DNA from: Bombyx mori
Lineage: Eukaryota; Arthropoda; Insecta; Lepidoptera; Bombycidae
Length of the DNA stretch: 64,000 bases
Assembly (NCBI RefSeq): GCF_030269925.1
Contig: NC_085135.1
Span: forward strand, 6,014,753 to 6,078,752
Reading direction: 5' to 3'
Positions 24,967 to 52,339 of this stretch are shown in pieces; positions within the stretch are counted from its first letter, which is position 1; each line of letters opens with the position of its first letter. The notes below the pieces were generated by a model. That model searched no databases. It was not told where the DNA came from and saw only the letters and a list, made by a program, of their open reading frames with translations. A program made the position numbers and the translations under genes.

Positions 24967-25113
24967 CCTACCTATGCTGATAGCCTTGAGAGGCTATTTC
25001 AGCTTCACCCTAACGTTTGTAGGTGAGCTCGCGGGGCTCAACCGGAGAGTTGCTAACACTGACCCTAGCAAGAGCAGTGCTTCGCAGAATCTACCACCGG
25101 ATCGGAAACGCGA

Positions 25114-25147: not shown

Positions 25148-25160
25148 CTGTGTCTGTGGG

Positions 25161-28043: not shown

Positions 28044-28063
28044 TGATTACCGGTAAAGAATTT

Positions 28064-29669: not shown

Positions 29670-29721
29670 CTTTACGTGATTTTCGCCCGGGGGGGGGGCG
29701 GCCCCGGGACTTAAACACGCG

Positions 29722-29737
29722 CTCGCCTTGCGGCGAG
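29722..29737 (-). other. Leader hairpin upstream of Jockey ORF1
   Basis: Sense strand CTCGCC-GCAA-GGCGAG, identical to 20523-20538 in a different subfamily, about 55 bases upstream of the ORF1 ATG. Confidence 0.65.
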
Positions 29738-30548
29738 GCCCCTGCGTCGGTAACACTAAATTGGCCGAAGCGATTCTAGGAATTTTAGAAATTTTAGTGA
29801 ATAGAATAAATAGAATAGAATTAGAGTGAATAGAACCACTGCACAGTTCCCGGGCGGCAATGCCTTGCAATTAGGCGCAGGTACAAATTCCGAGAAACAC
29901 TTGAGCCACAGATGTGCCACGAACAATGATCTATTATCACCGGTAGTCACTTCCGACAAAACAATGAGCACGTCCACGCGCGTCGGTTGCTCAAATCGGA
30001 ATGTTGAGTATTTCTTCACTTTCAAGCCAGTTAAGTAGTCACTAAAAATTTTTTCGTGAAACCAATACAATATCAAGATTTTTTCTTTCGTTTTTCATAA
30101 TAATATTGTTTTTTAAGGTTTTATCTATTCTAATGGTTTATACACATATATTTTTTCGGTTAGAAAATTTTATCAACGTCTAGCTAGCTGTAAATACTGC
30201 TTGTAACATTGCTTTTTTTTTTGAAAGAGTTGGTTGATGAGAGAGGGAGTGAGATAGAGTATTCTTTATTGTACACATAATGAATAAATACTGCGAACAA
30301 TATTAACCAAAAAAAAAAGAGTTCAATTCTTGGTCTTATCGCTAAGAGCGATCTCTTCCAGACAACCATTAGGTGGGCAAGAATCATTTCGAAATGAATT
30401 GCAGACGGTGTACCTATCTATTGAAATATATACATACACAAAAAAAATCAAATTTATGCTGGGCAGTTACTAAAAAATCAAATTTATGCTGGGCGGTTTT
30501 CGTGTATTTTAAAGGTTACGCCATTACGGCAAAGTTTGTTTACGAAAT

Positions 30549-31200
30549 CTCTTCTATATCGTTCCCTCACTACTGAGGATCGCGACCACATGCGATGTAC
30601 TTCCAATGCACCCGATCATGGGTGGCATGGACTGCATGGTACAGACTACCACCGAGTGCTTCTCTTGCCAGATCTGACCATCTGGCTGGTGTTCTGCCCA
30701 CGGCGCGCTTGCCTTCCATTCGACCCGTAATTATGAGCTTCTCTAATTCATGTCTGGGAGACCGCATGATGTGTCCGAAGAAGCTCATAACACGTTCCCG
30801 GCAGATGGAAGAGAGCCTTTTTCGGATGCCTAGCTGCCTTAGTATGGACTCGTTTGTTCGCATGGCAGTCCACGGTATTCGCAACATCCTCCGCCACACC
30901 CACATTTCAAAGGCATCGATCTTTTTGATATCCCGGCTTTTTATGCACCATGTCTCCGCCCCGTAGAGGAATATGGGAAAGATCAGTGCCCGCACCAAGC
31001 GCACTTTGGTTATACATCGGATGCTACGATTTTTCCATATCTTCCTGAGATTGGCCATCGCACTTTTAGCCATTCCGGATCTTCGGCGTATCTCCCCCAT
31101 GCAGCCACCCTCGGATGTTATTTGCGACCCAAGATATATGAATTCTGCTACTTAGCAGACTTACTACTTACTTACTTTAGCAGACTTACTACTTACTTAC
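30549..31200 (-). mobile_element. RTE-type LINE, 5'-truncated
   Basis: Minus-strand insertion bounded by a 10-bp target duplication TTTACGAAAT (30539-30548 and 31201-31210). The other units have the uninterrupted GTTTGTTTACGAAATAGCACC. At its 5' side lies a 29-bp duplication of TTAGCAGACTTACTAC-type sequence. Confidence 0.85.
30570..31151 (-). pseudogene. RTE reverse transcriptase C-terminal fragment
   Basis: Open from the truncation point: VAEFIYLGSQITSEGGC, then LRKIWKNRSI, LVRALIFPIFLYGAETW, WRRMLRIPWTAMRTNESIL and LGHI-like FFGHIMRSPRHELEKLI...GRTPARWSDL. This is the diagnostic C-terminal region of insect RTE/BovB-like elements. The catalytic palm is missing. Confidence 0.88.
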
Positions 31201-31705
31201 TTTACGAAATAGCACCCTTAGAATTGAAATGGTATAACTAAAAAATTTAAGATAATTAGTTTTATATTTCAAAACACTTATGTATTAGACTTAGAACTAT
31301 AATAATGTTCAAACTTAAAATTTAAATAAATTATGGTCGAATTTCAACCACTGGACTACCATTAGTAGGTAATAATAAAATAATTTATTGCCTTTCACAC
31401 AGATTTAGATTATTACAGGCAGCCTACAAGGAAACAACAAAAAAAACAAAACACTAATATATCATTTCTGGCAAGCAGCTCAACATTTGCACTTGTATAT
31501 TATTAATAGGAATTTTATTAAGAATATTGACAATTTATGAGGACTTTGACAAGTACGGATTAATATAGTTACATATTGTAAATTAAATTAGTTTTATAAG
31601 TGCAATAAAAAATAATTTTAATGATAAAATTACCATTACCATACCGTATCGTTTTCCAATGTGACGATTAGAGGGTATCCTATTATTCTTTTCTATATTA
31701 TTCTA

Positions 31706-31910
31706 TCTATACTAATATTATAAAGAGGAAAGATTTGTTTGTTTGTTTGTTTCGAATAGGCTCCGAAACGACTGGACCGATTTGAAAAATTCTTTTTCCA
31801 TTAGAAGCCGACATTGTCCCTGATGAACATAGGCTACTTTTTTTTTATTTATTTTTTTGGTTTCATGTGTGTTTTAATGTTTCCGAAGCGAAGCGAGGGC
31901 GGGTCGCTAG
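31706..31910 (+). mobile_element. Non-autonomous mini-Helitron, 205 bp
   Basis: Starts TCTATACTAATATTATAAAG and ends CGGGTCGCTAG, the terminal signatures of lepidopteran Helitrons (5' TC, 3' CTAG). A 5-bp stem AGCGA/TCGCT (31892-31908) precedes the 3' end. It lies exactly between A (31705) and T (31911). The other units have the unfilled site TTCTATCAGC, and no target duplication was made, as expected for rolling-circle transposition. No coding capacity. Confidence 0.93.
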
Positions 31911-32948
31911 TCAGCTTATAAAATTAAACAGTCACTTTTAGTCTAGAAAAGGACAAAGTACTCTTTCTGTCTTTTTCAAATAAAATGCATGCCTTAAAGT
32001 GTTTAAACCGAAAAACTAAAAAAATACAATTCTTGTATTCTAATATTGAAGTTTACCATAAAATAAGAATTTTGGGTTGAGCCACTTTAATTCTAAAGGT
32101 ACAAAATAATATTGAACACGTGACATTACCCGAATAATTTTGAAAGCAGCGTGTTCCCATTAAAATACTGTTAAAATACGTTGTATTTCATTTAGACGGT
32201 CTAATGCCAAAACACCACGCTACCAATATACGAGAAAATATATTATTGCTGCTCTCGGTGAATAAACGTCCTGCGAATCGAATAGCATATTATGTCAACT
32301 CACACTCACAATTCTTCATTTTTCACCGAGTAGAACGTAAACTCGATTTGCGCAGTTGTTATATTATTTGATGTATTTTACCAAACTCGCACTGAGAGCA
32401 CATTTGTTGAATTTTGTAAAAATGAAAAGAATCCAATATGAATTTGATTTGTTGGTAAGTTTTAAGAAAGAATGCATAATAAAGGTATTTACAAAATTTT
32501 ATGAGTTATTAAAGTAAGCTTGTGATATTTTTTGGTGTATTTGTTCACTGTCTTTGTTTTTAAAAGAACTTGCTTTCACTAACGAGCTAGAACGTTTAGA
32601 AAATCTTAAATTTGTTGATTGTTTCAATTCTTTGTATAATAACTTATGAGTCTTCTTTTCTTAAATTCGATCCAATAATATTTAATATAGGATTATTTTA
32701 AATTCAATGCTTTATACTAAGCTCGTCTTGTACTGTAGCCGTCGGGCGAGTGCATCCCCCAAGCAAAACATTGCGTGCGGCGATTTTGATTTATTCACTT
32801 ACAATTTAACAACTAGGAAAAAAGATGAAAAGACGTTTTGGAGGGACCGCGAGGAGCTAAGTTGTGTGAATTGTTTTATTTTGTCTATTTAATGTTTCTT
32901 AGTTAATGCGTTCTTAATATTTCTTCGGGTATAAGTATGAAATTTTGA

Positions 32949-33022
32949 GATCGTCCTGGCCTAAAGGTTAAGGTGTCCGGTGCATTCGTATCTTGCGATG
33001 CACCGGTGTTCTAACCCCGCCG
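32949..33022 (+). repeat. Bm1 SINE 5' part, interrupted (unit 3)
   Basis: The tRNA-like head of Bm1 to CCCCGCCG, where a DNA transposon end begins. The remainder of this SINE is represented at 50757-51122. CGCCG (33018-33022) is repeated at the other transposon end. Confidence 0.85.
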
Positions 33023-33373
33023 CACACTGTATTATTATCGAGATCTAGCAGAACTTAATTCAATCTTGCGTGAATTTATCTTTTTTTAATTTTACGTGTC
33101 ATAAAATGTTAATATTAGATGTTATTTCGTATTTCTAAATAAATAAATAACATTAATTATTAATAAAAATCATTTATTTCTTTTTCTTTAAAAATATTAT
33201 TTTTAATACTGCAACTTTGTTCTAAATACACAAGAAATATATTTTACACCCCTAAATATATTCTAGACTAAAAAAAATTCGCATAACCTTCTACCCATCT
33301 TCCTCCGTCGAGTAAGTTTCTTCTCCCATGTTCTATTTTGAACTGTTGATTTGGAAGATAGAAGTGGATCAGT
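33023..33373 (-). mobile_element. Transib-like DNA transposon, left terminal part
   Basis: Begins with a terminal inverted repeat, CACACTGTATTATTATCG and onward, 38 bp (33023-33060), identical in inverse to 46203-46240. The target duplication is CGCCG. The end heptamer CACACTG resembles the CACA/T-type Transib end and the V(D)J heptamer. It continues into the last codons of the transposase and breaks at about 33373, where block 2 starts. Confidence 0.85.
33263..33373 (-). pseudogene. Transib transposase, last 36 codons
   Basis: Minus-strand frame entering at 33373 and ending at TAG 33263-33265: TDPLLSSKSTVQNR, WEKKLTRRRKMGRR, then the stop about 200 bases before the transposon end. It joins in phase with the fragment ending at 42648 (DVLNRFLIG). 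Family proteins usually have (S/T)DP at this point, so the two pieces belong together. Identity of the terminus rests on that joining. Confidence 0.75.
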
Positions 33374-33618
33374 AGGCTTAATGCGAGTTTCAAAAAAGGA
33401 ATCGATTGACTCGCATCGAGTGTACGCTCTTCACGGTGAAGCGTGCGGAGCTCTGTAGGCTTAGTGCGAGTTTCAAAAATGGAATCGATTGACTCGCATC
33501 GAGTGTACGCTCTTCACGGTGAAACGTGCGGAGCTCTGTAGGCTTAGTGCGAGTTTCAAAAATGGAATCGATTGACTCGCATCGAGTGTACGCTCTTCAC
33601 GGTGAAACGTGCGGAGCT
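33370..33618 (+). repeat. 83-bp direct repeat, three copies
   Basis: Period exactly 83 bp (33370, 33453, 33536). The first copy starts CAGTAGGCTTAATGCGAG. Same repeat as at 7175. The copy number difference (two versus three) shows it varies between blocks. Confidence 0.9.
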
Positions 33619-34286
33619 CTGAGTGCGAGTTACTCGATTTGCAGGACGTTTATTCATCTTGAGAAGCGATATTTTTTTCTTTTATATTGGTAGCACGCAA
33701 GGTTTTTTTTAAGGCGTTTAATTGAAATGCCAAGCTTTCTAACGATATTTATAATTAGTCGGGTAATGGGTAATGTACCTGTGCTTAGTGCGAGTTTTTT
33801 TAATTACTCAGTCGATGTTAATGTTATGTTTAATTTGTGTGAGTTTGTATCAGTGCCACCTAGTGGTAAGCTTATGAATCTCATTTTGTGGGAGAGAGAA
33901 GGTTTGTTTATGTTGCTGTCTCATGTATCGAATAGCTTTACCGAAGTGAGGCTCTCGATTATTGTATGCGCGAGTGCGAGTTGCAAATTAATGGATTTTG
34001 AGAGTATTTCTTCACTTTCAAGCAAGTTAAGTAGTCACTAAAAATTTTGCCGTGAAACCAATACAATATCAAGATTTTTTCTTTCGTTTTTAATAATAAT
34101 GTTGTTTTTTAAGGTTTTATCTATTCTAATGGTTTAGACACATATATTTTTTCGGTTAGAAAATTTTATAGACGTCTAGCTAGTTGTAAATACATATTAA
34201 TTCTTTGCTTTTTCATTTAATTCTTATTAAATCATTGCTTTTTTTTAAAGAGTTGTTTGATGAGAGAGAGAGAGCGAGATAGAGTT

Positions 34287-34532
34287 GATTTTTTTTTATT
34301 GCTTAGATGGATGGACGAGCTCACAGCCCACCTGATGTTAAGTGGTTACTGGAGCCCATAGACATCTACAACGTAAATGCGCCACCCACCTCGAGATATA
34401 AGTTCTAAGGTCTCAGTATAGTTACAACGGCTACCCCACCCTTCGAACCGAAACGCATTATTGCTTCACGGTGGAAATAGGCGGGGTGGTGGTACCTACC
34501 CGTGTGGACTCCCAAGAGGTCCTACCACCAGT
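34287..34532 (-). repeat. Bm1 SINE, 3' fragment (unit 4)
   Basis: Same truncated minus-strand insertion as 8012-8258, ending CCTACCACCAGT before AGAGTATTC. Confidence 0.9.
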
Positions 34533-34692
34533 GAAAGAGTATTCTTTATTGTACACAAAATGAATAAATATTGTAAAACATTTTTTCTTGGTCTTATCGC
34601 TAAGAGTGATCTCTTCCAGACAACCATTAGATGGGCAAGAATAATTTCGAAATGAATTGCACACTGTGTATCTATCTATTATAGAAATATAT

Positions 34693-34706
34693 ACACACAC
34701 GCACAT

Positions 34707-34740
<34 letters not shown>

Positions 34741-34744
34741 GCGC
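34693..34744. repeat. (CA)n microsatellite of unit 4
   Basis: CA/CG tract at the same unit position as 8426. Confidence 0.9.
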
Positions 34745-36675
34745 AATATACATATTTACAGGTACATACGTACAGATTTATATTTATAAATTATATAGAA
34801 ATTTGAACAATGTAATAATAATTTTGCTTCTTTACACATTTATAAATAAGGATGGATGCTCGTAATAATTTTAGTATATTTGGGCCACCTAATGAAGATT
34901 ATCAACACTATTACCTTAAATACAATCATTTTATACACGTTCAACGGGTAAAAGATTAAACCTATGTAAAACATAATTTCTTTAATTAAAAAAAGCTGAA
35001 ATAATTACCTATTCCAAGATTAATTATGTTAAGTATGTCTCAATATGTAATTACAATTAAATAAATTCTATAATAAACTTCTAATTCTAATACTTCTATT
35101 AAAGTTACTAAAAAAATATGTTTATGCTGGGCAGTTTTCATGTATTTTAAAGGTTACGCCATTACGGCAAAGTTTGTTTACGAAATTGCACGCTTAGAAT
35201 GGAAGTGGTATAACTAAAAAATTTAAGATTAGTTTTATATTTCAAAACACTTATGTATTATTATTAAGAACCTACATTTTAAGTAGGTAATACGTGCAGC
35301 AAAAATGTTGGACTCCTTTTTACGAAAATTGCGCGGACGGAGAAGTATGAAATTTCCCACACTCATAGAGAATATAGAGAAGTAGTGCAGATTGCTAATT
35401 TTTTTTTTTAATTGTGCATAAACAATAAAAAAATAAACTAAATGAATAAAAAAACCTTACACACATTACCATGTATTTGACACACACACACACACATGCA
35501 TTTATACTTTTTTTGTTTATTGATTTATCAATCTGTGGTCAAATTGAGAATAGATTAATATTTTTTGTCTTTAATATTATTTTTCTATAATGTAGCCTTG
35601 GCGACATAGAGCAATGATTATTATAGAAATGATGATAATAGAAAGGTGACAATAGAACTATAATAATGTTCAAACTTAAAATTTAAATAAATTATGGTCA
35701 AATTTCGACCACTGGACTACCATTAGTAGATAATAATAAAATCATTTATTGCCTTTCACACAGATTTAGATTATTACAGGCAGCCTACAAGGAAACAACA
35801 AAAAAACAAAACACTATTATATCATTTCTGGCAAGCAGCTCAACATTTGCACTTGTATATTATTAATAGGAATTTTATTAAGAATATTGACAATTTATGA
35901 GGAATTTGACAAGTACGGATTAGTTATAGATATATGTAGTTACATATTGTAAATTAAATTAGTTTTATAAGTGCAATAAAAAATAATTTAAATGATAAAA
36001 TGATAAAGCCATACCTTTTTCCAATGTGACGATTAGAGGGTATCCTATTATTCTTTTCTATATTATTCTATCAGCTTATAAAATTAAACAGTCTCTTTTA
36101 GTCTAGAAAAGGACAAAGTACTCTTTCTGTCTTTTTCAAATAAAATGGCATGCCTTAAAGTGTTTAAACCGAAAAACTAAAAAAATACAATTATTGTATT
36201 ACAATATTGAAGTTTACCAGAAACTAAGAATTTTGGGTTGAGCCACTTTAATTCTAAAGGTACAAAATAGTATTGAACACGTGACATTACCCGAATAATT
36301 TTGAAAGTAGTTGGTTCCCATTAAAAGGCTGTTAAAATGCGTTGTATTTCATTTAGACGGTCTAATGCCAAAACATCACGTGCTACCAATATACGAGAAA
36401 TAATATTATTGCTGCTCTCGGTGAATAAACGCCCTGCGAAGCGAGTAGCATATCTCAACTCACACTCACAATTCTTCATTTTTCACCGTATAGAACGTAA
36501 ACTCGATTTGATTTTGATTTATTCATTTACAATTGAACAACTAGGAAAAAAAGGTGAAAAGACATTTTGGAGGGACCGCGAGGAGCTAAATTGTGTGAAT
36601 TGTTTTATTTTGTCTATTTAATGTTTCTTAGTTAATGCGTATTTAATATTTCTTCGTGTATAAGTGTAATTTTGA

Positions 36676-37109
36676 GACCGTCCTGGCTTAAAGGTTAAGG
36701 CGTCCGGTGTATTCGTATCTTGCAATGCACCGGTGTTCTAATCCCGCCGGCGGGTATCAATTTTTCTAATGAAATATGTACTTATCAAATGTTTACGATT
36801 GACTTTCACTGTAAAGGAATAGCATCATGTAATAAAAATCAAACCCGCAAAATTAATTTTTGTAATTACTGGTGGTAGGACGTCTTGTGAGTCCGCACGG
36901 GTAGGTATCACCACCCTGCCTATTTTTGCCGTGAAGCAGTAATGCGTTTCGGTTTGAAGGGTGGGACAACCGTTGTAACTATACTGAGACCTTAGAACTA
37001 ATATCTCAAGGTGGGAGGCGGCATTTGCGTTGTAGATGTCTATGGGCTCCGGTAACCACTTAAGATTAGGTGGGCCGGGAGCTCGTCCACCCATCTGTGC
37101 AATAACAAA
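36676..37109 (+). repeat. Bm1 SINE, near full length (unit 4)
   Basis: Full tRNA head, body and A-rich end, at the same place as in the other units. Confidence 0.93.
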
Positions 37110-37799
37110 GTAACGTGGGTTTATTAACTGTTTAGTATCTGTGAAAGTGCAAAAATTTTAAAAAATTAAACAAAACCGCTGGACGTAGCTTCTCGATGTC
37201 TTCGAAAAGGTCCACTGAAAAAAATCTCAGTATATAATCAGCATTTTGCAGAGATTATATTTTATCCCATATTATCTGATCTCATTTCATTTCATTCCAT
37301 GCCAATTGATTAATGCTTCAAATTAATCAAATCCATTTCACTCCATATTATCATTTTTCATAAAAAAAAATTAGGTTCTATGGCATGATATTTTTGCCTC
37401 TCTAGTTGGAAAAATAAAACTACTAAAGAAATACTCGATCGAAACGTTAAAATCCACTAATTTGTAACACGCACTCGCACAAATGTCATTCGTAGTACTC
37501 ATTTCGGTAAAATTACTCGGTTACGAGATCACAACGTTAATATGAACTCGCACTCACAAAATAACACCGAGTACGTTTGCCGCTAGGGGCGCTGTTCCAA
37601 TTGCATACAAATTTGAGCAAACTGGCTCGCTAGTGAGAACGTTACAAAACTCGCACTAAGCACACTGAGTGCGAGTTACTCGATTTGCAGGACGTTTATT
37701 CATGTTGAGAAGCGATATTTTTTTCTTTTATATTGGTAGCACGCAAGGGTTTTTTTTAAGGCGTTTAATTGAAATGCCAAGCTTTCTAACGATGTTTAT

Positions 37800-37980
37800 T
37801 TTGGGGAGATATATACGACAAAGGGAAGATCTTCCACCGAGCGGTGACATTGCTCGGTAGACCGACGGTCCGAATGTTGTTGTTCGGAACTTGTATATAT
37901 GCGCTTTATCTTGAAAATGTCGTAAGCGAGATTCAGGCATCTGTCAATTATCTTGCGTTGTATGATGGCTACCTGCCACA
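37800..37980 (-). repeat. TRIM 3' LTR
   Basis: Appears identical to 38540-38720 base for base as read by eye, which suggests a recent insertion. Preceded, on the element's sense strand, by the polypurine tract. Confidence 0.88.
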
Positions 37981-38539
37981 TCACTCCCCTCCGAGACTGG
38001 AGGTCGTGTCATTTTTTAGTTAGCGTTGTCCGTGCTGAGATTAGCTTGCAAGGGCCAGTGCTGCTCGAAGCCTGCGGTGAGTCGAGGCTGAGCTTGAATG
38101 CTGCGTGCGTGTCGCCAGTGCTGCTCGAAGTTTGCAGTGAGTCGAAACTGAGCTGAATGCTGCGTGATTGTCGCCAGTGCTGCTCGAAGTCTGCGGTGAG
38201 TCGAGACTGAGCTTGAATGTTGCGTGCGTGTCGTGCGTAGTCCATGTGATGCAGAGCTGCCACGCCGGAGATGTGTGACCCCAAGCGTTGATGATCCGGT
38301 CGTGGGCTGCGATGAACTGTAGCGGCGTGATGAGGCAGTGAAGTTGCGTGCCGTAGGACCAGGAAGCGCGGTGAGTCGGCTGCGATGGTCCTGTTGAGGC
38401 TGCGATGCTGGCTTGCTGTGGGACGACTGTCAATGACGTGTTTTTATCTGCGAGAATGCGGGGATTGTGGTAGCCGAAATTCTTGATGCGCTGATGATGA
38501 ATCAGAAGGTTGCGTGTTCAGATCACGTCGGGTCACCAG

Positions 38540-38720
38540 TTTGGGGAGATATATACGACAAAGGGAAGATCTTCCACCGAGCGGTGACATTGCTCGGTAG
38601 ACCGACGGTCCGAATGTTGTTGTTCGGAACTTGTATATATGCGCTTTATCTTGAAAATGTCGTAAGCGAGATTCAGGCATCTGTCAATTATCTTGCGTTG
38701 TATGATGGCTACCTGCCACA
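38540..38720 (-). repeat. TRIM 5' LTR
   Basis: Sense-strand upstream LTR, followed by the primer-binding-like site at about 38522-38538. Confidence 0.88.
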
Positions 38721-39261
38721 TTTATAATTAGTCGGGTAATGGGTAATGTACCTGTGCTTAGTGCGAGTTTTTTTAATTACTCAGTCGATGTTAATGTTAT
38801 GTTTAATTTGTGTGAGGTTGTATCAGTGCCACCTAGTGGTAAGTTTATGAATCTCATTTTGTGGGAGAGAGAAGGTTTGTTTATGTTGCTGTCTCATGTA
38901 TCGAATAGCTTTACCGAAGTGAGCCTCTCGATTAATGTATGTGCGAGTGCGAGTTGCAAATTAATGGATTTTGAGAGTATTTCTTCACTTTCAAGCAAGT
39001 TAAGTAGTCACTAAAAATTTTGCCGTGAAACCAATACAATATCAAGATTTTTTCTTTCGTTTTTAAGAATAATGTTGTTTTTTAAGGTTTTATCTATTCT
39101 AATGGTTTATACACATATCTTTTTTCGGTTAGAAAATTTTATAGACGTCTAGCTAGTTGTAAATACATATTAATTCTTTGCTTTTTCATTTAATTCTTAT
39201 TAAATCATTGCTTTTTTTTAAAGAGTTGTTTGATGAGAGAGAGAGAGAGTGAGATAGAGTT

Positions 39262-39508
39262 GTTTTTTTTTTATTGCTTAGATGGATGGACGAGCTCACA
39301 GCCCACCTGATGTTAAGTGGTTACTGGAGCCCATAGACATCTACAACGTAAATGCGCCACCCACCTCGAGATATAAGTTCTAAGGTCTCAGTATAGTTAC
39401 AACGGCTACCCCACCCTTCGAGCCGAAACGCATTACTGCTTCACGGCGGAAATAGGCGGGGTGGTGGTACCTACCCGTGTGGACTCCCAAGAGGTCCTAC
39501 CACCAGTG
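39262..39508 (-). repeat. Bm1 SINE, 3' fragment (unit 5)
   Basis: Third occurrence of the truncated minus-strand Bm1 at the same unit position. Confidence 0.9.
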
Positions 39509-39667
39509 AAAGAGTATTCTTTATTGTACACAAAATGAATAAATATTGTGAAACATTCTTTCTTGGTCTTATCGCTAAGAGTGATCTCTTCCAGACAACC
39601 ATTAGATGGGCAAGAATAATTTCGAAATGAATTGCACACTGTGTACCTATCTATTATAGAAATATAT

Positions 39668-39718
39668 ACACACATGCACATACACACGCGCACACACACA
39701 CACACACACACGCGCGCG
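39668..39718. repeat. (CA)n microsatellite of unit 5
   Basis: CA/CG tract at the position seen in the other units. Confidence 0.9.
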
Positions 39719-41655
39719 CAATATACATATTTACAGGTACATACGTACAGATTTATATTTATAAATTATATAGAAATTTGAACAATGTAATAATAATTTT
39801 GCTTCTTTACACATTTATAAATAAGGATGGATTCTCGTAATAATTTTAGTATATTTGGGCCACCTAATGAAGATCATCAACACTATTACCGTAAATACAA
39901 TCATTTCATAAACGTTCAACGGGTAAATGATTAAACCTATGTAAAACATAATTTCTTTAATTAAAAAAAGCTGAAATAATTACCTATTCCAAGATTAATT
40001 ATGTTAAGGATGTCTAAATATGTAATTACAATTAAATAAATTCTATAATAAACTTCTAATTCTAATACTTCTATTAAAGTTACTAAAAAAATATGTTTAT
40101 GCTGGGCAGTTTTCGTGTATTTTAAAGGTTACGCCATTACGGCAAAGTTTGTGTACGAAATATCACCCTTAGAATGGAAGTGGTATAACTAAAAAAATTA
40201 AGATTAGTTTTATATTTCAAAACACTTATGTATTATTATTAAGAACCTACATTTTAAGTAGGTAATACGTGAAGCAAAAATGTTGTACCACTTTTTACGA
40301 AAATTGCGCGGACGGAGAAGTATGAAATTTCCCACACTTATAGAGAATATAGAGAAGTAGTGCAGATTGCTAATTTTTTTTTTTAATTGTGCATAAACAA
40401 TAAAAAAATAAACTAAATTAATAAAAAAAACCTTACACACATTACCATGTATTTGACACACACACACACACACACATGCATTTATACTTTTTTTGTTTAT
40501 TGATTTATCAATCTGTGGTCAAATTGAGAATAGATTAATATTTTTTGTCTTTAATATTATTTTTCTATAATGTAGCCTTGGCGACATAGAGCAATGATTA
40601 TTATAGAAATGATGATAATAGAAAGGTGACAATAGAACTATAATAATGTTCAAACTTAAAATTTAAATAAATTATGGTCAAATTCGACCACTGGACTACC
40701 ATTAGTAGATAATTATAAAATCATTTATTGCCTTTCACACAGATTTAGATTATTACAGGCAGCCTACAAGGAAACAACAAAAAAACAAAACACTAATATA
40801 TCATTTCTGGCAAGCAGCTCAACATTTGCACTTGTATATTATTAATAGGAATTTTATTAAGAATATTGACAATTTATGAGGAATTTGACAAGTACGGATT
40901 AGTTATAGATATATGTAGTTACATATTGTAAATTAAATTAGTTTTATAAGTGCAATAAAAAATAATTTAAATGATAAAATGATAAAGCCATACCTTTTTC
41001 CAATGTGACGATTAGAGGGTATCCTATTATTCTTTTCTATATTATTCTATCAGCTTATAAAATTAAACAGTCTCTTTTAGTCTAGAAAAGGACAAAGTAC
41101 TCTTTCTGTCTTTTTCAAATAAAATGGCATGTCTTAAAGTGTTTAAACCGAAAAACTAAAAAAATACAATTATTGTATTACAATATTGAAGTTTACCAGA
41201 AACTAAGAATTTTGGGGTTGAGCCACTTTAATTCTAAAGGTACAAAATAGTATTGAACACGTGACATTACCCGAATAATTTTGAAAGTAGTTGGTTCCCA
41301 TTAAAATGCTGTTAAAATGCGTTGTATTTCATTTAGACGGTCTAATGCCAAAACATCACGTGCTACCAATATACGAGAAATAATATTATTGCTGCTCTCG
41401 GTGAATAAACGTCCTGCGAATCGAGTAGCATATCTCAACTCACACTTACAATTCTTCATTTTTCACCGTATAGAACGTAAACTCGATTTGATTTTGATTT
41501 ATTCATTTACAATTGAACAACTACGAAAAAAAGATAAAAAGACATTTTGGAGGGATCGCGAGAAGCTAAATCGCGGGAATTGTTTTATTTTGTTTATTTA
41601 ATGTTTCTTAGTTAATGCGTATTTAATATTTCTTCGTGTATAAGTGTAATTTTGA

Positions 41656-42092
41656 GACCGTCCTGGCCTAAAGGTTAAGGCGTCCGGTGTATTCGTATCT
41701 TGCAATGCACCGGTGTTCTAATCCCGCCGGCGGGTATCAATTTTTCTAATGAAATACGTACTTATCAAATGTTTACGATTGACTTTCACTGTAAAGGAAT
41801 AGCATCATGTAATAAAAATCAAACCCGCAAAATTAATTTGCGTAATTACTGGTGGTAGGACGTCTTGTGAGTCCGCACGGGTAGGTATCACCACCCTGCC
41901 TATTTTTGCCGTGAAGCAGTAATGCGTTTCGGTTTGAAGGGTGGGACAACCGTTATAACTATACTGAGACCTTAGAACTAATATCTCAAGGTGGGAGGCG
42001 GCATTTGCGTTGTAGATGTCTATGATGGGCTCCGGTAACCACTTAAGATTAGGTGGGCCGGGAGCTCGTCCACCCATCTATGCAATAACAAA
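41656..42092 (+). repeat. Bm1 SINE, near full length (unit 5)
   Basis: Complete copy. Its position 41725 (CGCCGG) is the left limit of the 4,516-bp duplicated segment, so this SINE took part in the recombination. Confidence 0.93.
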
Positions 42093-42647
42093 GTAACGTG
42101 GGTTTATTAACTGTTTAGTATCTGCGAAAGTGCGAAAATTTAAAAAAAATAAACAAAACCGCTGGACGTAGCTTCTCGAAGTCTTCGAAAAGGTCCACTG
42201 AAAAAAATCTCAGTATATAATCAGTATTTTGCAGAGATTATATTTTATCCCATATTATCTGATCTCATTTCATTTCATTCCATGCCAATTGATTAATGCT
42301 TCAAATTAATCAAATCCATTTCACTCCTATCATTTTTCATAAAAAAAGATTAGGCTTTATGGCATGATACTTTTGCCTCTCTAGTTGGAAAAATAGAACT
42401 ACTAAAGAAATACTCGATCGAAACGTTAAAACCCACTAATTTGTAACACGCACTCGCACAAATGTCATTCGTGGTACGGATTTCGGTAAAATTACTCGGT
42501 TACGAGATCACAACGTTAATATGAACTCGCACTCACAAAATAACACCGGGTACGTTTGCCGCTAGGGGCGCTGTTCCAATTGCATACAAATTTGAGCAAA
42601 CTGGCTCGCTATCGAGAGCGTTACAAAACTCGCACTAAGCACACTGA

Positions 42648-43014
42648 ACCTATCAGAAATCGGTTAAGTACGTCTCGATTGGTGTTAATTGTGCTTGTTT
42701 TCCTGCTGAAATACTCGCGATTCCTCCTATATTCCTTATTGTTCGCTTCTTGAGCTTCTTCTGCTAATTGGTCCAAAGGTAAAACGCATGTTTTAATTAC
42801 TTCTTTTGAGTGTGCGAGGATTTTGTGTATACTAGAAGGCATGTAGTACCAGGAATAATGTACTAAATAAAGTTTTCTTGTCTCTTCGGCATATGTCTTG
42901 TGCCTCCAAGATAACAGAAATGTTTGATTAAATCCAGATTGATCCCTGTTATTTTCGCTTACATTTCTCCCATTTAGATTGTATTTTTGCGGTAAGACTA
43001 CTTATTAACATTTG
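42648..43014 (-). pseudogene. RAG1-like Transib transposase, C-terminal catalytic fragment
   Basis: The minus-strand frame contains TYAEETRKLYLVHYSWYYMP, SSIHKILAHSKEVIK and LAEEAQEANNKEYRRNREYF, then DVLNRFLIG at the break. From known vertebrate RAG1 this aligns with the core end: FHKTLAHVPEII and [21 protein letters not shown]. The glutamate of LAEEAQEANNK corresponds to the third catalytic acidic residue. Upstream (43014-43105) another frame reads plausible coding sequence (CRNPPRSLQMLISSLTAKI), so at least one frameshift or intron boundary is present. The first two catalytic aspartates are not found. Non-functional remnant. In life the enzyme would cut and paste the element. Confidence 0.8.
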
Positions 43015-43490
43015 AAGTGATCGTGGAGGGTTTCTACAGTCCTCTATGTCATAATATTATAGTATTTTTTCAATTATAAGGTTATTTTGACCTTTTTTTT
43101 ATTACTTGGGAACCATATATTAAAAATATCACGCCTTTTCATTGCACTGAAAACAAAAAAAAATGTATGAGCGGGGCAAATAGGAGCAAGGGATTCCAAC
43201 TAAATTTCAAAGAACATTAACCGTAGAATGCTATAACAGTGATTTCCCGGTGTATACACTTGCATAAATTTTTAAAAGTCAACACTAATACAAAAAGAAT
43301 TTTTTTTTCAAGGACTACAACAAAAACGTTATTAATTAATAACATTTCAATATTATAAGGTTCAAACTTACCTTAACGTATCCTCGATGATATAACAAAC
43401 GATAAAAATGACCAATTACAGCACTTTAAACGACAAGAACAGACCTGTTCGCATTCTGCAAAAAGCAAAACTAAACAATACACTCGTGCT

Positions 43491-46056
43491 AATTATGTAG
43501 ACTACAGCCGTAGCGTTTAAAAAAAACCAAAATTCTATGAACTTATTTATTATAGAAATATAATTATAACAATTAATTAAACTAAGATGCTATTGAGTGG
43601 ACTTGGACGATGTCAGTACCGAAGTGGCGCCAGCGGGCCCCGGCCCGGGCGGCATAGCGACGCTGCAGTGTCAGCACTTGACGCCAGTCGCGTATTTTTC
43701 CATGAACATGGAATGAGGTTGCTGCGTCGACAATTTGTAGTCACGTACGCCACTGGTTGCTAATTGCGAAATCGCGAATTAGCAAAATGCATGTAACTAG
43801 GGTACGTAACACCTCCCCCCTTAGCTCGGCAACTATTTGATAATCTTGAGGGCAAATGTTGCCGGAATTCGGTCCTTCTTCTGGGGTTCTTCTGGACTCT
43901 CGTACGGGTGGAATTTTGAGGTTTCTTCGCGTGGCTTCTTTTCCAGGGTTATGTTGCAAGACTTGTGCCGATGAACAGCGATTACAACAGCTAGGACAAT
44001 TGCGCCGCAGAGTGCTCCGTAAAAAGGTATTGTCGTATGAAAGAGTGCTTGGTTCGTGACGTCACTTTGTTCCAGGTCCACAGGATGTTGTTGGATTATA
44101 TCATCTTGGATTTGGTGTATTTTCTCCAGGTTCAAGGAGGTGAGCTTGATATGAGGTCTAATGGGTCCTGTGATTTTTGCATCCTTCGGGATTTCAGTTA
44201 TTTTCAGAGGCTGTCCGTTGATCTGATCATTATTGTTTGCTAGTGTTAGTCGTCCGGTTCGCAGCTTACAATTTTGCGGAATGGTAACGAGATAACTTCC
44301 TTGAAGCGTACTGTACTCCAGGCGTTGACAATGAAGTTCGATCTTCGTGGTCTCGGGAAAAATAAGGACGTAATGCTTATCGTCTAGTTGTTCCATGGCT
44401 TCTTTAGTGAAAGAAACAGAGGTTGGCTGGCATGAAGTGTTCATGGCTTGATTGTAGATAAGATCGTGGATGCAATCAGGGTTATCTCTTGGCTGGTGAT
44501 TTATATTTTCCTCGCAGAGGTAGTACCTGTTGTACTTCGGGCATTCAGCCTCTATGTACATGAACGCTTTCTTATTTGTTGCGATGAAAGGATAAGGAGG
44601 GACGAAAGTTAATTGATGCTTATTAGGGGCAATGGTTAATTTATATAGTTCGAATTCATCCGGAGAAATTACAGGAAATTTAAAGACAATAACTATTTTC
44701 TTTCCTACATAATAATAGCCTGGTTTTATAATATTATAATATTCTCTTAAATCTACGTTTAAAATACGGTTTTCCGTATATAATTTTCTTAACCTATCTG
44801 TCATATTACTTAACGTATCTATGCTTATCATACTATGGTGTGTGCTTGATGCACGGATAAAACTTAAGATATTTTCAATCCTACATAATTCGTTATATAA
44901 ATCCTCAATATTTTCACTAATGATAGCTAGTAACTGGGCAAATTTAGCATATTTAAGCAGATTACTATCGGCATATATTTTACTGTCTAATAACCAGCTT
45001 AAGGTAACATTAATTTTTTCCTGATTCTTTGCGATTTCGGAAAGTAGCTGTGTATGTTCGGTCATCCATGCTTTGTTCAGACTAATATATTGGTTAAGCT
45101 CGGATGATAGCTGATTATCATTATTTTGCAAAATTTTAATAGCTTTACTGTAAAGTTCGGCATCTGACTGGTCTAGGTTACCTGTAATGCTTTTAACAAT
45201 TGAACCTAAGCCATCAATGAGACCTCTTTTTACACGATTGGGTTTGAGGCTGTTAATTTTAGAATTGATTTTAGTGATTTTGCTAGTTAGGTAGTTTATT
45301 TGCAGTTCATAAAGGAGATAAGTGTGTTCGTCTAGTTGGTCTTTAAAATATTTTAGTTGAGTTTGTACTGAGTCGAGTCTGTTGTCTACATCAGCTAATT
45401 CTATATATTGTAAAAAGGAATGATAGTGGGATACGAGTCTAGTCTGTCCGAGTTTAAAAGGTAAAAGTCCAGGTCCGTTCTCGAGGGTCTCAAGTTTTAT
45501 CTCGTGTGCGGTCGTCAGATGTCGGGTCAGGAGGTTCAGTAGAATCATACGATATATCATTTTGGTCTTCTCGCGTATCGATTTCCAGATACTACGCCGG
45601 CCGTGTCTTCACGATTCAGGTATTCGATAAGGGCTTGATAGCACGAGCAGCGACTATACGGAGTCGGCAGAATCAACGATTTTTGGTGTTCTTTACCGCG
45701 CCGCGCACTGCTTCGAATATCCTACCGACTGCGCCAATTATGTAGACTACAGCCGTAGCGTTTAAAAAAAACCAAAATTCTATGAACTTATTTATTATAG
45801 AAATATAATTATAACAATTAATTAAACTAAGATGCTATTGAGTGGACTTGGACGATGTCAGTACCGAAGTGGCGCCAGCGGGCCCCGGCCCGGGCGGCAT
45901 AGCGACGCTGCAGTGTCAGCACTTGACGCCAGTCGCGTATTTTTCCATGAACATGGAATGAGGTTGCTGCGTCGACAATTTGTAGTCACGTACGCCACTG
46001 GTTGCTAATTGCGAAATCGCGAATTAGCAAAATGCATGTAACTAGGGTACGTAACA
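43491..46056 (-). mobile_element. Errantivirus-like LTR element containing only env, copy 1
   Basis: Two 321-bp LTRs (43491-43811, 45736-46056) that look identical, duplication TGCT on both sides (43487, 46057). On the minus strand the 5' LTR is followed by TGGCGCAGTCGGTAGG, a tRNA-type primer-binding site of the gypsy/297 group, a 175-nt leader, the env frame, and a polypurine tract AAGGGGGGAGG (43812-43822) directly before the 3' LTR. Gag and pol are completely absent. Confidence 0.92.
43833..45560 (-). CDS. env: Errantivirus envelope (baculovirus-F-like fusion protein), 575 residues
   Basis: Open frame with an F-type fusion-protein layout. The N-terminal part is short with only a weak hydrophobic stretch (MILLNLL), so the signal peptide may be incomplete. 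A furin-type site RVKR lies at 109-112, followed by a GLIDGLGSIVKSITG fusion-peptide region. A heptad-rich segment (about 130-280) and a cysteine-containing ectodomain follow. A transmembrane helix (YGALCGAIVLAVVIAV) lies around 510-530 with a 42-residue basic cytoplasmic tail. Family knowledge: such proteins mediate membrane fusion of insect endogenous retroviruses. Both duplicate copies are uninterrupted, but with no gag-pol here this copy cannot be autonomous. Confidence 0.92.
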   Translation of the reverse strand: MIYRMILLNLLTRHLTTAHEIKLETLENGPGLLPFKLGQTRLVSHYHSFLQYIELADVDNRLDSVQTQLKYFKDQLDEHTYLLYELQINYLTSKITKINSKINSLKPNRVKRGLIDGLGSIVKSITGNLDQSDAELYSKAIKILQNNDNQLSSELNQYISLNKAWMTEHTQLLSEIAKNQEKINVTLSWLLDSKIYADSNLLKYAKFAQLLAIISENIEDLYNELCRIENILSFIRASSTHHSMISIDTLSNMTDRLRKLYTENRILNVDLREYYNIIKPGYYYVGKKIVIVFKFPVISPDEFELYKLTIAPNKHQLTFVPPYPFIATNKKAFMYIEAECPKYNRYYLCEENINHQPRDNPDCIHDLIYNQAMNTSCQPTSVSFTKEAMEQLDDKHYVLIFPETTKIELHCQRLEYSTLQGSYLVTIPQNCKLRTGRLTLANNNDQINGQPLKITEIPKDAKITGPIRPHIKLTSLNLEKIHQIQDDIIQQHPVDLEQSDVTNQALFHTTIPFYGALCGAIVLAVVIAVHRHKSCNITLEKKPREETSKFHPYESPEEPQKKDRIPATFALKIIK

Positions 46057-46240
46057 TGCTAGTACGCATAAGCTATGTTTCGAGACTTCCCCTGTGTTGT
46101 ATGGTGTTACACACTTATTAATTTTATTTAATATCGGTTATTTAGTTATACACCTGTGTAATAAAGGGAGTTTTAGGAATATTTAGAAGAGTACTATTTT
46201 TTAATTAAGTTCTGCTAGATCTCGATAATAATACAGTGTG

Positions 46241-46608
46241 CGCCGGCGGCTATCAATTTTTCTAATGAAATACGTACTTATCAAATGTTTACGATTGACT
46301 TTCACTGTAAAGGAATAGCATCATGTAATAAAAATCAAACCCGCAAAATTAATTTGCGTAATTACTGGTGGTAGGACGTCTTGTGAGTCCGCACGGGTAG
46401 GTATCACCACCCTGCCTATTTTTGCCGTGAAGCAGTAATGCGTTTCGGTTTGAAGGGTGGGACAACCGTTATAACTATACTGAGACCTTAGAACTAATAT
46501 CTCAAGGTGGGAGGCGGCATTTGCGTTGTAGATGTCTATGATGGGCTCCGGTAACCACTTAAGATTAGGTGGGCCGGGAGCTCGTCCACCCATCTATGCA
46601 ATAACAAA
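46241..46608 (+). repeat. Bm1 SINE 3' part after the Transib end, copy 1
   Basis: Starts CGCCGGCGGCTATC directly after the transposon end. The first bases match the original unit 3 SINE (GGCTATC), the rest matches unit 5 (TCTATGATGGGC), so it is a recombinant. Confidence 0.85.
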
Positions 46609-47163
46609 GTAACGTGGGTTTATTAACTGTTTAGTATCTGCGAAAGTGCGAAAATTTAAAAAAATTAAACAAAACCGCTGGACGTAGCTTCTCGAAGTCT
46701 TCGAAAAGGTCCACTGAAAAAAATCTCAGTATATAATCAGTATTTTGCAGAGATTATATTTTATCCCATATTATCTGATCTCATTTCATTTCATTCCATG
46801 CCAATTGATTAATGCTTCAAATTAATCAAATCCATTTCACTCCTATCATTTTTCATAAAAAAAGATTAGGCTTTATGGCATGATACTTTTGCCTCTCTAG
46901 TTGGAAAAATAGAACTACTAAAGAAATACTCGATCGAAACGTTAAAACCCACTAATTTGTAACACGCACTCGCACAAATGTCATTCGTGGTACGGATTTC
47001 GGTAAAATTACTCGGTTACGAGATCACAACGTTAATATGAACTCGCACTCACAAAATAACACCGGGTACGTTTGCCGCTAGGGGCGCTGTTCCAATTGCA
47101 TACAAATTTGAGCAAACTGGCTCGCTATCGAGAGCGTTACAAAACTCGCACTAAGCACACTGA

Positions 47164-47530
47164 ACCTATCAGAAATCGGTTAAGTACGTCTCGATTGGTG
47201 TTAATTGTGCTTGTTTTCCTGCTGAAATACTCGCGATTCCTCCTATATTCCTTATTGTTCGCTTCTTGAGCTTCTTCTGCTAATTGGTCCAAAGGTAAAA
47301 CGCATGTTTTAATTACTTCTTTTGAGTGTGCGAGGATTTTGTGTATACTAGAAGGCATGTAGTACCAGGAATAATGTACTAAATAAAGTTTTCTTGTCTC
47401 TTCGGCATATGTCTTGTGCCTCCAAGATAACAGAAATGTTTGATTAAATCCAGATTGATCCCTGTTATTTTCGCTTACATTTCTCCCATTTAGATTGTAT
47501 TTTTGCGGTAAGACTACTTATTAACATTTG
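47164..47530 (-). pseudogene. RAG1-like Transib transposase fragment, copy 2
   Basis: Same fragment as 42648-43014, produced by the segmental duplication rather than by transposition. Same motifs and same truncation. Confidence 0.8.
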
Positions 47531-48006
47531 AAGTGATCGTGGAGGGTTTCTACAGTCCTCTATGTCATAATATTATAGTATTTTTTCAATTATAAGGTTA
47601 TTTTGACCTTTTTTTTATTACTTGGGAACCATATATTAAAAATATCACGCCTTTTCATTGCACTGAAAACAAAAAAAAATGTATGAGCGGGGCAAATAGG
47701 AGCAAGGGATTCCAACTAAATTTCAAAGAACATTAACCGTAGAATGCTATAACAGTGATTTCCCGGTGTATACACTTGCATAATTTTTTAAAAGTCAACA
47801 CTAATACAAAAAGAATTTTTTTTTCAAGGACTACAACAAAAACGTTATTAATTAATAACATTTCAATATTATAAGGTTCAAACTTACCTTAACGTATCCT
47901 CGATGATATAACAAACGATAAAAATGACCAATTACAGCACTTTAAACGACAAGAACAGACCTGTTCGCATTCTGCAAAAAGCAAAACTAAACAATACACT
48001 CGTGCT

Positions 48007-50572
48007 AATTATGTAGACTACAGCCGTAGCGTTTAAAAAAAACCAAAATTCTATGAACTTATTTATTATAGAAATATAATTATAACAATTAATTAAACTA
48101 AGATGCTATTGAGTGGACTTGGACGATGTCAGTACCGAAGTGGCGCCAGCGGGCCCCGGCCCGGGCGGCATAGCGACGCTGCAGTGTCAGCACTTGACGC
48201 CAGTCGCGTATTTTTCCATGAACATGGAATGAGGTTGCTGCGTCGACAATTTGTAGTCACGTACGCCACTGGTTGCTAATTGCGAAATCGCGAATTAGCA
48301 AAATGCATGTAACTAGGGTACGTAACACCTCCCCCCTTAGCTCGGCAACTATTTGATAATCTTGAGGGCAAATGTTGCCGGAATTCGGTCCTTCTTCTGG
48401 GGTTCTTCTGGACTCTCGTACGGGTGGAATTTTGAGGTTTCTTCGCGTGGCTTCTTTTCCAGGGTTATGTTGCAAGACTTGTGCCGATGAACAGCGATTA
48501 CAACAGCTAGGACAATTGCGCCGCAGAGTGCTCCGTAAAAAGGTATTGTCGTATGAAAGAGTGCTTGGTTCGTGACGTCACTTTGTTCCAGGTCCACAGG
48601 ATGTTGTTGGATTATATCATCTTGGATTTGGTGTATTTTCTCCAGGTTCAAGGAGGTGAGCTTGATATGAGGTCTAATGGGTCCTGTGATTTTTGCATCC
48701 TTCGGGATTTCAGTTATTTTCAGAGGCTGTCCGTTGATCTGATCATTATTGTTTGCTAGTGTTAGTCGTCCGGTTCGCAGCTTACAATTTTGCGGAATGG
48801 TAACGAGATAACTTCCTTGAAGCGTACTGTACTCCAGGCGTTGACAATGAAGTTCGATCTTCGTGGTCTCGGGAAAAATAAGGACGTAATGCTTATCGTC
48901 TAGTTGTTCCATGGCTTCTTTAGTGAAAGAAACAGAGGTTGGCTGGCATGAAGTGTTCATGGCTTGATTGTAGATAAGATCGTGGATGCAATCAGGGTCA
49001 TCTCTTGGCTGGTGATTTATATTTTCCTCGCAGAGGTAGTACCTGTTGTACTTCGGGCATTCAGCCTCTATGTACATGAACGCTTTCTTATTTGTTGCGA
49101 TGAAAGGATAAGGAGGGACGAAAGTTAATTGATGCTTATTAGGGGCAATGGTTAATTTATATAGTTCGAATTCATCCGGAGAAATTACAGGAAATTTAAA
49201 GACAATAACTATTTTCTTTCCTACATAATAATAGCCTGGTTTTATAATATTATAATATTCTCTTAAATCTACGTTTAAAATACGGTTTTCCGTATATAAT
49301 TTTCTTAACCTATCTGTCATATTACTTAACGTATCTATGCTTATCATACTATGGTGTGTGCTTGATGCACGGATAAAACTTAAGATATTTTCAATCCTAC
49401 ATAATTCGTTATATAAATCCTCAATATTTTCACTAATGATAGCTAGTAACTGGGCAAATTTAGCATATTTAAGCAGATTACTATCGGCATATATTTTACT
49501 GTCTAATAACCAGCTTAAGGTAACATTAATTTTTTCCTGATTCTTTGCGATTTCGGAAAGTAGCTGTGTATGTTCGGTCATCCATGCTTTGTTCAGACTA
49601 ATATATTGGTTAAGCTCGGATGATAGCTGATTATCATTATTTTGCAAAATTTTAATAGCTTTACTGTAAAGTTCGGCATCTGACTGGTCTAGGTTACCTG
49701 TAATGCTTTTAACAATTGAACCTAAGCCATCAATGAGACCTCTTTTTACACGATTGGGTTTGAGGCTGTTAATTTTAGAATTGATTTTAGTGATTTTGCT
49801 AGTTAGGTAGTTTATTTGCAGTTCATAAAGGAGATAAGTGTGTTCGTCTAGTTGGTCTTTAAAATATTTTAGTTGAGTTTGTACTGAGTCGAGTCTGTTG
49901 TCTACATCAGCTAATTCTATATATTGTAAAAAGGAATGATAGTGGGATACGAGTCTAGTCTGTCCGAGTTTAAAAGGTAAAAGTCCAGGTCCGTTCTCGA
50001 GGGTCTCAAGTTTTATCTCGTGTGCGGTCGTCAGATGTCGGGTCAGGAGGTTCAGTAGAATCATACGATATATCATTTTGGTCTTCTCGCGTATCGATTT
50101 CCAGATACTACGCCGGCCGTGTCTTCACGATTCAGGTATTCGATAAGGGCTTGATAGCACGAGCAGCGACTATACGGAGTCGGCAGAATCAACGATTTTT
50201 GGTGTTCTTTACCGCGCCGCGCACTGCTTCGAATATCCTACCGACTGCGCCAATTATGTAGACTACAGCCGTAGCGTTTAAAAAAAACCAAAATTCTATG
50301 AACTTATTTATTATAGAAATATAATTATAACAATTAATTAAACTAAGATGCTATTGAGTGGACTTGGACGATGTCAGTACCGAAGTGGCGCCAGCGGGCC
50401 CCGGCCCGGGCGGCATAGCGACGCTGCAGTGTCAGCACTTGACGCCAGTCGCGTATTTTTCCATGAACATGGAATGAGGTTGCTGCGTCGACAATTTGTA
50501 GTCCCGTACGCCACTGGTTGCTAATTGCGAAATCGCGAATTAGCAAAATGCATGTAACTAGGGTACGTAACA
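48007..50572 (-). mobile_element. Errantivirus-like env-only LTR element, copy 2
   Basis: Duplicate of 43491-46056, with the same TGCT flanks (48003, 50573). LTRs 48007-48327 and 50252-50572. The outer LTR has one base change (GTAGTCCCG near 50503) relative to the other three. Confidence 0.92.
48349..50076 (-). CDS. env: Errantivirus envelope, copy 2
   Basis: 575 residues, differing from 43833-45560 by one visible replacement (QPRDD instead of QPRDN). Furin-type RVKR, fusion region and transmembrane segment are all kept. Same interpretation as copy 1. Confidence 0.92.
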   Translation of the reverse strand: MIYRMILLNLLTRHLTTAHEIKLETLENGPGLLPFKLGQTRLVSHYHSFLQYIELADVDNRLDSVQTQLKYFKDQLDEHTYLLYELQINYLTSKITKINSKINSLKPNRVKRGLIDGLGSIVKSITGNLDQSDAELYSKAIKILQNNDNQLSSELNQYISLNKAWMTEHTQLLSEIAKNQEKINVTLSWLLDSKIYADSNLLKYAKFAQLLAIISENIEDLYNELCRIENILSFIRASSTHHSMISIDTLSNMTDRLRKLYTENRILNVDLREYYNIIKPGYYYVGKKIVIVFKFPVISPDEFELYKLTIAPNKHQLTFVPPYPFIATNKKAFMYIEAECPKYNRYYLCEENINHQPRDDPDCIHDLIYNQAMNTSCQPTSVSFTKEAMEQLDDKHYVLIFPETTKIELHCQRLEYSTLQGSYLVTIPQNCKLRTGRLTLANNNDQINGQPLKITEIPKDAKITGPIRPHIKLTSLNLEKIHQIQDDIIQQHPVDLEQSDVTNQALFHTTIPFYGALCGAIVLAVVIAVHRHKSCNITLEKKPREETSKFHPYESPEEPQKKDRIPATFALKIIK

Positions 50573-50756
50573 TGCTAGTACGCATAAGCTATGTTTCGAG
50601 ACTTCCCCTGTGTTGTATGGTGTTACACACTTATTAATTTTATTTAATATCGGTTATTTAGTTATACACCTGTGTAATAAAGGGAGTTTTAGGAATATTT
50701 AGAAGAGTACTATTTTTTAATTAAGTTCTGCTAGATCTCGATAATAATACAGTGTG

Positions 50757-51122
50757 CGCCGGCGGCTATCAATTTTTCTAATGAAATACGTACTTATCAA
50801 ATGTTTACGATTGACTTTCACTGTAAAGGAATAGCATCGTGTAATAAAAATCAAACCCGCAAAATTAATTTGCGTAATTACTGGTGGTAGGACGTCTTGT
50901 GAGTCCACACGGGTAGGTATTACCACCCTACCTATTTTTGCCGTGAAGCAGTAATGCGTTTCGGTTTGAAGGGTGGGACAACCGTTGTAACTATACTGAG
51001 ACCTTAGAACTAATATCTCAAGGTGGGAGGCGGCATTTGCGTTGTAGATGTCTATGGGCTCCGGTAACCACTTAACATAAGGTGGGCCGGGAGCTCGTCC
51101 ACCCATCTATGCAATAAAAAAA
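50757..51122 (+). repeat. Bm1 SINE 3' part, original unit 3 copy
   Basis: Continues the SINE whose head is at 32949-33022. It lacks the 3-bp duplication of unit 5 and has private differences (CTTAACATAAGG). The rest of unit 3 follows to CTCGCACTAAGCACACTG at 51661. Confidence 0.85.
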
Positions 51123-51661
51123 TAACGTTGGTTTATTAACTGTTTAGTATCTGTGAAAGTGCAAAAATGTAAAAAAATTAAACAAAACCGCTGGACGTAG
51201 CTTCTCGAAGTCTTCGAAAAAGTCCACTGAAAAAATCTCAGTAAATAATCACCATTTTACTGAGATTATATTTTATCCCATATTATCTGATTTCATTTCA
51301 TTTCATTCCATGCCAATTGATTAATGCTTCAAATTAATCAAATCCATTTCACTCCATATTGCCATTTTTCATAAAAAAAGATTAGGCTCTTTTGCCTCTC
51401 TAGTTGGAAAAATAGAACTACTAAAGAAATACTCGATCGAAACGTTAAAATCCACTAATTTGTAACACGCACTCGCACAAATGTCATTCGTGGTACTCAT
51501 TTCGGTAAAATTATTCGTTTACGAGATCACAACGTTAATATGAACTCGCACTCACAAAATAACACCGGGTACGTTTGCCGCTAGGGGCGCTGTTCCAATT
51601 GCATACTTGAGCAAACTGGCTCGCTATCGAGAACGTTACAAAACTCGCACTAAGCACACTG

Positions 51662-52125: not shown

Positions 52126-52339
52126 TTTTTTTTTTTTTTTTTTTCCTACCTATGCTGATAGCCTTGAGAGGCTATTTCAGCTTCACCCTAACGTGTGTAG
52201 GTGAGCTCACGGGGCTCAAACCGGAGAGTTGCTAACACTGACCCTAGCAAGAGCAGTGCTTCGCAGAATCTACCACCGGATCGGAAACGCGACCCACTGA
52301 GAAGATCCGGCGAGAAACTCAGTGGGCTGTGTCTAGGGG

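Follow-up and report, generated by a model that had tools for sequence, protein, structure and literature searches.

A short Transib transposon of the silkworm and the tandem block of a second transposon that splits it

RAG1 is an enzyme of the antibody genes, and Transib transposons are related to it. A 64,000-nucleotide stretch of the Bombyx mori genome (C29:6014753-6078752; hereafter the window, with positions counted from its first letter) holds one such transposon, with the pieces of its transposase coding sequence lying far apart around a block of tandem repeats. How did this transposon come to be pulled apart, and why is the material inside it tandem? The original prediction proposed a RAG1-like Transib inserted into a short interspersed element (SINE) and then split in two by a 9.3-kb tandem-repeat block. 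Every component that we find at the locus is of a known kind; their layering can be followed nearly to the single base, and the order of events is largely readable. Very probably the layers are nested: a Transib, then a single-unit block and an envelope-only long terminal repeat (LTR) element within it, then a copying of the locus and a self-insertion of the block transposon, with a crossover duplication besides.

Ends, relatives and transposase remnant of the Transib element

The ends of the element are exactly as predicted: the two arms of a 38-bp inverted repeat match perfectly, and each is bordered by CGCCG (Table 1). Inverted 24-mers spaced 5-20 kb apart number 55 in the window, other repeats of the window included, whereas none occurred in any of 10 sequences made by order-1 resampling. 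The element sits in a SINE, which we take to be the one named Bm1, and four copies of the flanking unit stand empty in the window, each with a single CGCCG. The predicted insertion into one SINE with a 5-bp duplication is thereby borne out. CGNCG is the target preference printed for Transib in PMC4735498, and the GC-rich CGCCG of the window agrees with it.

Searched with the 367-bp remnant, the genome yielded 24 places: two in the window, three in an inverted copy of the locus (8.4 Mb, C29), 18 elsewhere and one partial match of 62 bp. The partial was left out, and our counts of relatives rest on the 18 fetched copies. Both ends are kept in 17 of these (L025 lacks the 3' end), the 5' end matching the window's at 36-38 of 38 positions and the 3' end at 38 of 38, so that CAC-starting inverted repeats characterize the relatives as well. 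The 5-bp flanks are identical in all 17 two-ended relatives and read CGNCG in 14. Sixteen of these relatives measure 1370-1415 bp; the remaining one, which carries a further insert, reaches 1753 bp. The window element, its inserts removed, comes to 1374 bp. Pairwise mismatch among the 17 is 0.1-5.2%, with a median of 3.4%. At the place where the window element is split, all 18 relatives are uninterrupted and read GATAGGT-TCA-GATC, with the coding pieces in phase across it (GGT-TCA-GAT). The pieces thus join as predicted, and the block came into the transposase gene remnant later.

The open frame on the minus strand, which crosses the split into the block by its final residue, finds its best match among solved structures in 6pqn (72.9 bits, E 2.6e-19), which we take to be the Helicoverpa Transib transposase. 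The match lies far ahead of those to RAG1L (E 0.0029; presumably the lancelet protein of structure 6b40) and to RAG1 itself (E 0.32). When the two coding pieces were joined across the split, with an X at the junction, the match to 6pqn rose to 82.4 bits (E 3e-22) and extended through the SDP motif. A protein search returned three short proteins without informative names, inspected for the conserved SDP region alone. Nothing appeared of what the original prediction had named against itself: the frame matches a Transib best, and the 38-bp ends are shared by 17 of the 18 relatives. In place of a full DDE transposase, the window copy and all 17 two-ended relatives hold a C-terminal remnant only. 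No RAG2-like partner was recognised among frames of at least 100 aa in the element, though no dedicated RAG2 search was made, and the 23-base start of the Transib end had 0 matches in a pattern scan of viral contigs.

Might the frame instead be a domesticated or still useful RAG1-like gene and no transposon relic? It does keep, in an open frame, the region in which the last catalytic glutamate of RAG1 presumably falls, but it has about 120 residues against 489 in Hztransib, and it is interrupted in the window copy. Across the three forward frames of the 17 relatives the longest open stretch is 161 aa, and 15 of them do not exceed 133 aa. We give the idea of a surviving gene almost no credence, and hold to a transposon relic.

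The relatives are short and carry the remnant only; the Transib family is therefore non-autonomous: about 1.38 kb long, internally deleted and reduced to the C-terminus of its transposase. Hence the original prediction was right that a transposase sequence is interrupted here, but the sequence belongs to a deleted family and not to a full-length gene. Hztransib of Helicoverpa zea (3518 bp, GCTCG duplication, 489 aa; PMC1852546) is like the silkworm family in its inverted ends and its 5-bp duplication, and its transposase is the best match among solved structures. Unlike Hztransib, the silkworm family lacks most of the transposase, is 1.38 kb long and prefers CGNCG. Table 1 of PMC3722987 gives three Transib entries for Bombyx mori in BmTEdb; by that listing Transib is already known in the silkworm, and our family may be one of the three.

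The block and its flanking triplets

The predicted block does split the Transib element, with limits corrected to those in Table 1. By self-comparison a unit of about 4 kb stands in tandem within it, and copies of this element are scattered across many contigs; copy numbers are lower bounds, 40 having been scored of 122 and of 1322 candidates. Among the matches listed, 23 copies have both ends, and their flanks were read. The ends are TAGGCTTAGTGCGAG...CTCGCACTAAGCACA, the flanking triplets are CNG in 46 of 46 cases, and the two triplets are identical in 19 of the 23 copies (CAG or CTG in 17, CCG in one, CGG in one). The four unlike pairs lie on C5, beside another copy; on C29 at 4.2 Mb, where the right side is an internal array junction; on C28 (CTG/CCG); and on C11 at 17.47 Mb (CAG/CTG). 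The CNG flanks of these dispersed copies rule out two readings of the block, namely an insertion without duplication and a Helitron, the latter prompted by the tandem units.

The NuwaI group of the PHIS superfamily makes CWG target-site duplications (PMC4482050), and the block element is like it in duplicating CNG, mostly CAG or CTG. It is unlike NuwaI in its ends: those of NuwaI usually start GGG, and PMC4482050 names no moth among the hosts, whereas the block element's ends start TAGGC/TGTGC (TAGGCTTAGTGCGAG / TGTGCTTAGTGCGAG). No transposase was seen in the block element, though no search was aimed at an autonomous partner. In the pattern scan, one viral contig matched a 16-base piece taken from the block. 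The first-inserted unit holds a short LTR element resembling a terminal-repeat retrotransposon in miniature (TRIM), with three 59-bp internal repeats.

The block in the window and in an inverted copy

C29 measures 11.2 Mb in an assembly of 461.7 Mb and 30 contigs. It is probably the W chromosome, because its length and the 450.3 Mb printed in PMC11594454 for the Z and 27 autosomes of a published silkworm assembly together come close to our total. Much of the window region recurs on C29 in near-identical form, inverted and 2.3 Mb distant, at 8.39-8.43 Mb (L002-L004, L029, L043, L096, L097; 99.8-99.9% identity over the stretches compared). This copy keeps the left end of the Transib at 100%, and the block inside it consists of one unit with one left piece. 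It follows the window through 27159-33455 and then resumes at 37668, with one CTG; the two alignments (99.92% over 6297 bases and 99.86% over 3608) overlap by three bases, CTG, and joining the window's two flanks of the intervening piece gives a sequence that matches the inverted copy in all 200 of 200 bases. That 4209-bp piece has both transposon ends and a CTG on each side. Filled and empty states of one site are thus seen. The second unit is a transposon that was inserted into, or precisely lost from, an internal CTG of the first unit, and insertion is the simpler reading; we infer that it took place in the window rather than that a precise loss took place in the inverted copy. Perhaps the block had entered as a ready-made dimer? 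The single-unit block of the inverted copy rules this out. The original prediction therefore stands in that a block splits the Transib element; the block, however, is a transposon that would have entered as one unit and gained its second unit later.

In single-unit copies a CTG lies 81-83 bp in from the left end, followed by AGTGCGAG (3 of 3 shown). If a copy inserted itself at this site, one more left piece of 83 bp should result, along with a junction made of the right end, CTG and AGTGCGAG. The sequence bears out both forecasts: an 83/83 boundary fits at 105 of 105 bases, and the three junctions fit at 57, 55 and 56 of 57. Left pieces number two or three at all four array starts on C29 and one at all six single-unit starts, two of which are also on C29. 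The second copy in the window itself carries two left pieces, like the first unit of an outer array around the locus (Table 1), which explains why the block has three left pieces and two right ends.

Rolling-circle replication or unequal crossing-over, and not left-end insertion, might also have made the element tandem. Unequal crossing-over was probably active in the region, and in the outer array left pieces and units do not tally. Crossing-over between cores, however, would not add or remove a piece bounded exactly by transposon ends, and the window and the inverted copy differ by just that piece and one CTG. As for a rolling circle, no Helitron-type genes were recognised, and in five of six cases the right end folds about as well as its single-base shuffles, the one at 37668 being about 2 standard deviations better. 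We regard these routes as unlikely and favor insertion into the element's own left end.

Allowing two mismatches at most, the head-to-tail junction occurs seven times in the genome, always on C29 (4.2, 6.0 and 8.4 Mb) and on no other contig. We suggest, tentatively and with slightly less than even confidence, that on the W this dispersed DNA transposon has more than once gone into one fixed CTG of its own, 81-83 bp in from the left end, and so builds head-to-tail arrays with 83-bp repeats on one side. Such self-targeting, seen only on the non-recombining W, could be a seed for satellite-like arrays. Double insertion of transposons reportedly seeds tandem arrays, to go by the title of a 2018 paper by McGurk and Barbash; unlike in that idea, the site that is hit here lies within the left end of the element itself. 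As a general idea this is already in print, and the present case of self-insertion was not found in a limited literature search on double and self-insertion.

Duplication, surroundings and history of the locus

The Transib element is split by the block as predicted, but also by a 2565-bp LTR element, and a tandem duplication had been missed. The LTR element's envelope-like frame (43833-45608, 591 aa) matches Baculo_F at 5.2e-16; perhaps it arose by reverse transcription of a spliced env message from an errantivirus-like element. By eye it has a likely primer-binding site, and its duplicate at 48008-50572 shows one LTR difference.

The tandem duplication measures 4516 bp and includes a further exact copy of the 38-bp right arm at 50719-50756. 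Between the two copies lies a hybrid unit end with a patterned set of markers. Its flank-like columns are the first of 56, next to the junction, and column 425. Probably an unequal crossover between the right end of the block and the end of the flanking unit, within the first 83 columns, duplicated the 4516 bp. The same spacing is found in the inverted copy.

Could the Transib pieces, the block and the envelope element have been brought together only in the assembly, where repeat-rich DNA was wrongly joined or falsely duplicated? The copies in the tandem duplication differ at just 3 of 3593 and 2 of 923 bases, and the repeats, with a near-identical inverted copy 2.3 Mb off, are of a kind that confuses assemblers. 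Nearly all boundaries, however, are transposon ends with their duplications, the inverted copy has the two Transib/block junctions as well as the spacing of 4516 bp, and the middle copy is a patterned hybrid and no plain repeat. Moreover, the inverted copy differs by one exact transposon, hardly to be expected from an assembly error. We consider an artefact very unlikely and continue with nested insertion.

We propose that a short non-autonomous Transib landed in a SINE that lay within a unit of another transposon's tandem array, by the usual reaction with CAC ends and a 5-bp CGNCG duplication, its transposase presumably being supplied in trans from elsewhere. Later, a single-unit CNG transposon would have entered the Transib at a CTG in the transposase remnant, and the envelope-only LTR element would have entered further upstream. 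The locus would then have been copied, inverted, to a place 2.3 Mb away, and in the window copy a second CNG transposon would have gone into a CTG of the first, 81-83 bp in from its left end, giving the tandem look. Unequal crossover of the block's right end with the matching end of the flanking unit would have duplicated 4516 bp; both locus copies carry this duplication. The order in which the block, the LTR element and the duplication arose, like the trans-acting transposase, is what we infer from these remains.

Several observations weigh against this history. The Pfam RAG1 model gives the remnant 14.8 bits, under its cut-off of 25, and the same profile run over the whole genome had no match, a result made uninformative by the silence of its own control. 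No full-length transposase was found in the window copy or the 17 two-ended relatives. The flanks of the block within the Transib are unlike (CAG left, CTG right), as in 4 of the 23 other pairs. A single marker carries the left side of the crossover claim; at column 425 the block end differs from all other units shown except one. The outer array has two left pieces and three right ends, whereas three left pieces stand at the corresponding start in the inverted copy; recombination or slippage must therefore be added there.

Table 1. Features of the locus, by position in the window
Feature	Position	Strand	Remark
Transib transposon	33023-46240		perfect 38-bp inverted ends and CGCCG duplication
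Target-site duplication CGCCG, left	33018-33022		single copy at four empty sites
38-bp terminal inverted repeat, left arm, starts CACACTG	33023-33060	+
38-bp terminal inverted repeat, right arm	46203-46240	-
Target-site duplication CGCCG, right	46241-46245
Transib 3' part with end of transposase remnant (DPLLSSKSTVQNRTWEKK...)	33023-33369	-
Open frame with Transib transposase C-terminal remnant	42645-43001	-	6pqn homology from frame residue 33
CAG, left flank of block (CNG duplication)	33370-33372		site is CTG on this strand in 18/18 relatives
Block: CNG-duplicating DNA transposon with second copy inside left end	33373-42643	+	9271 bp
CTG, right flank of block	42644-42646
Second copy of CNG transposon, at internal CTG of first	33456-37664	+	4209 bp; absent from inverted copy
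CTG flanks of second copy	33453-33455 and 37665-37667
Short LTR (TRIM-like) element in first-inserted unit	37800-38721		182-bp terminal repeats identical
LTR element, sole long frame envelope-like	43492-46056	-	2565 bp
LTRs of envelope-only element	43492-43811 and 45737-46056		identical 320/320
TGCTA, LTR-element duplication, left	43487-43491
TGCTA, LTR-element duplication, right	46057-46061
Duplicate of 42648-46240	47164-50756	-	3/3593 bases differ
Hybrid unit end	46241-47163	+	2/56 distinguishing columns like true right flank, 54 like block end
Probable original right flank of Transib: end of last outer-array unit	50757-51658	+
Outer three-unit array of CNG transposon	7178-51658	+	interrupted by inserts like long interspersed elements and by Transib
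CTG flanks of outer array	7175-7177 and 51659-51661

Minus-strand inserts resembling non-LTR retrotransposons lie at 11791-15213, 15721-21815, 24875-30005 and 52126-56885; several have long open frames (up to 973 aa), and they interrupt or adjoin the outer array. At a unit junction of the inverted copy lies a 588-bp Transib piece with no counterpart in the window, which points to ectopic exchange.

The locus documents, with its empty site, a short CGNCG-targeting Transib family that is probably the silkworm's. The block within it offers a simple way, open to checking, in which one transposon can become a tandem array by insertion into its own subterminal target site, and the states before and after such a self-insertion are present in one chromosome.

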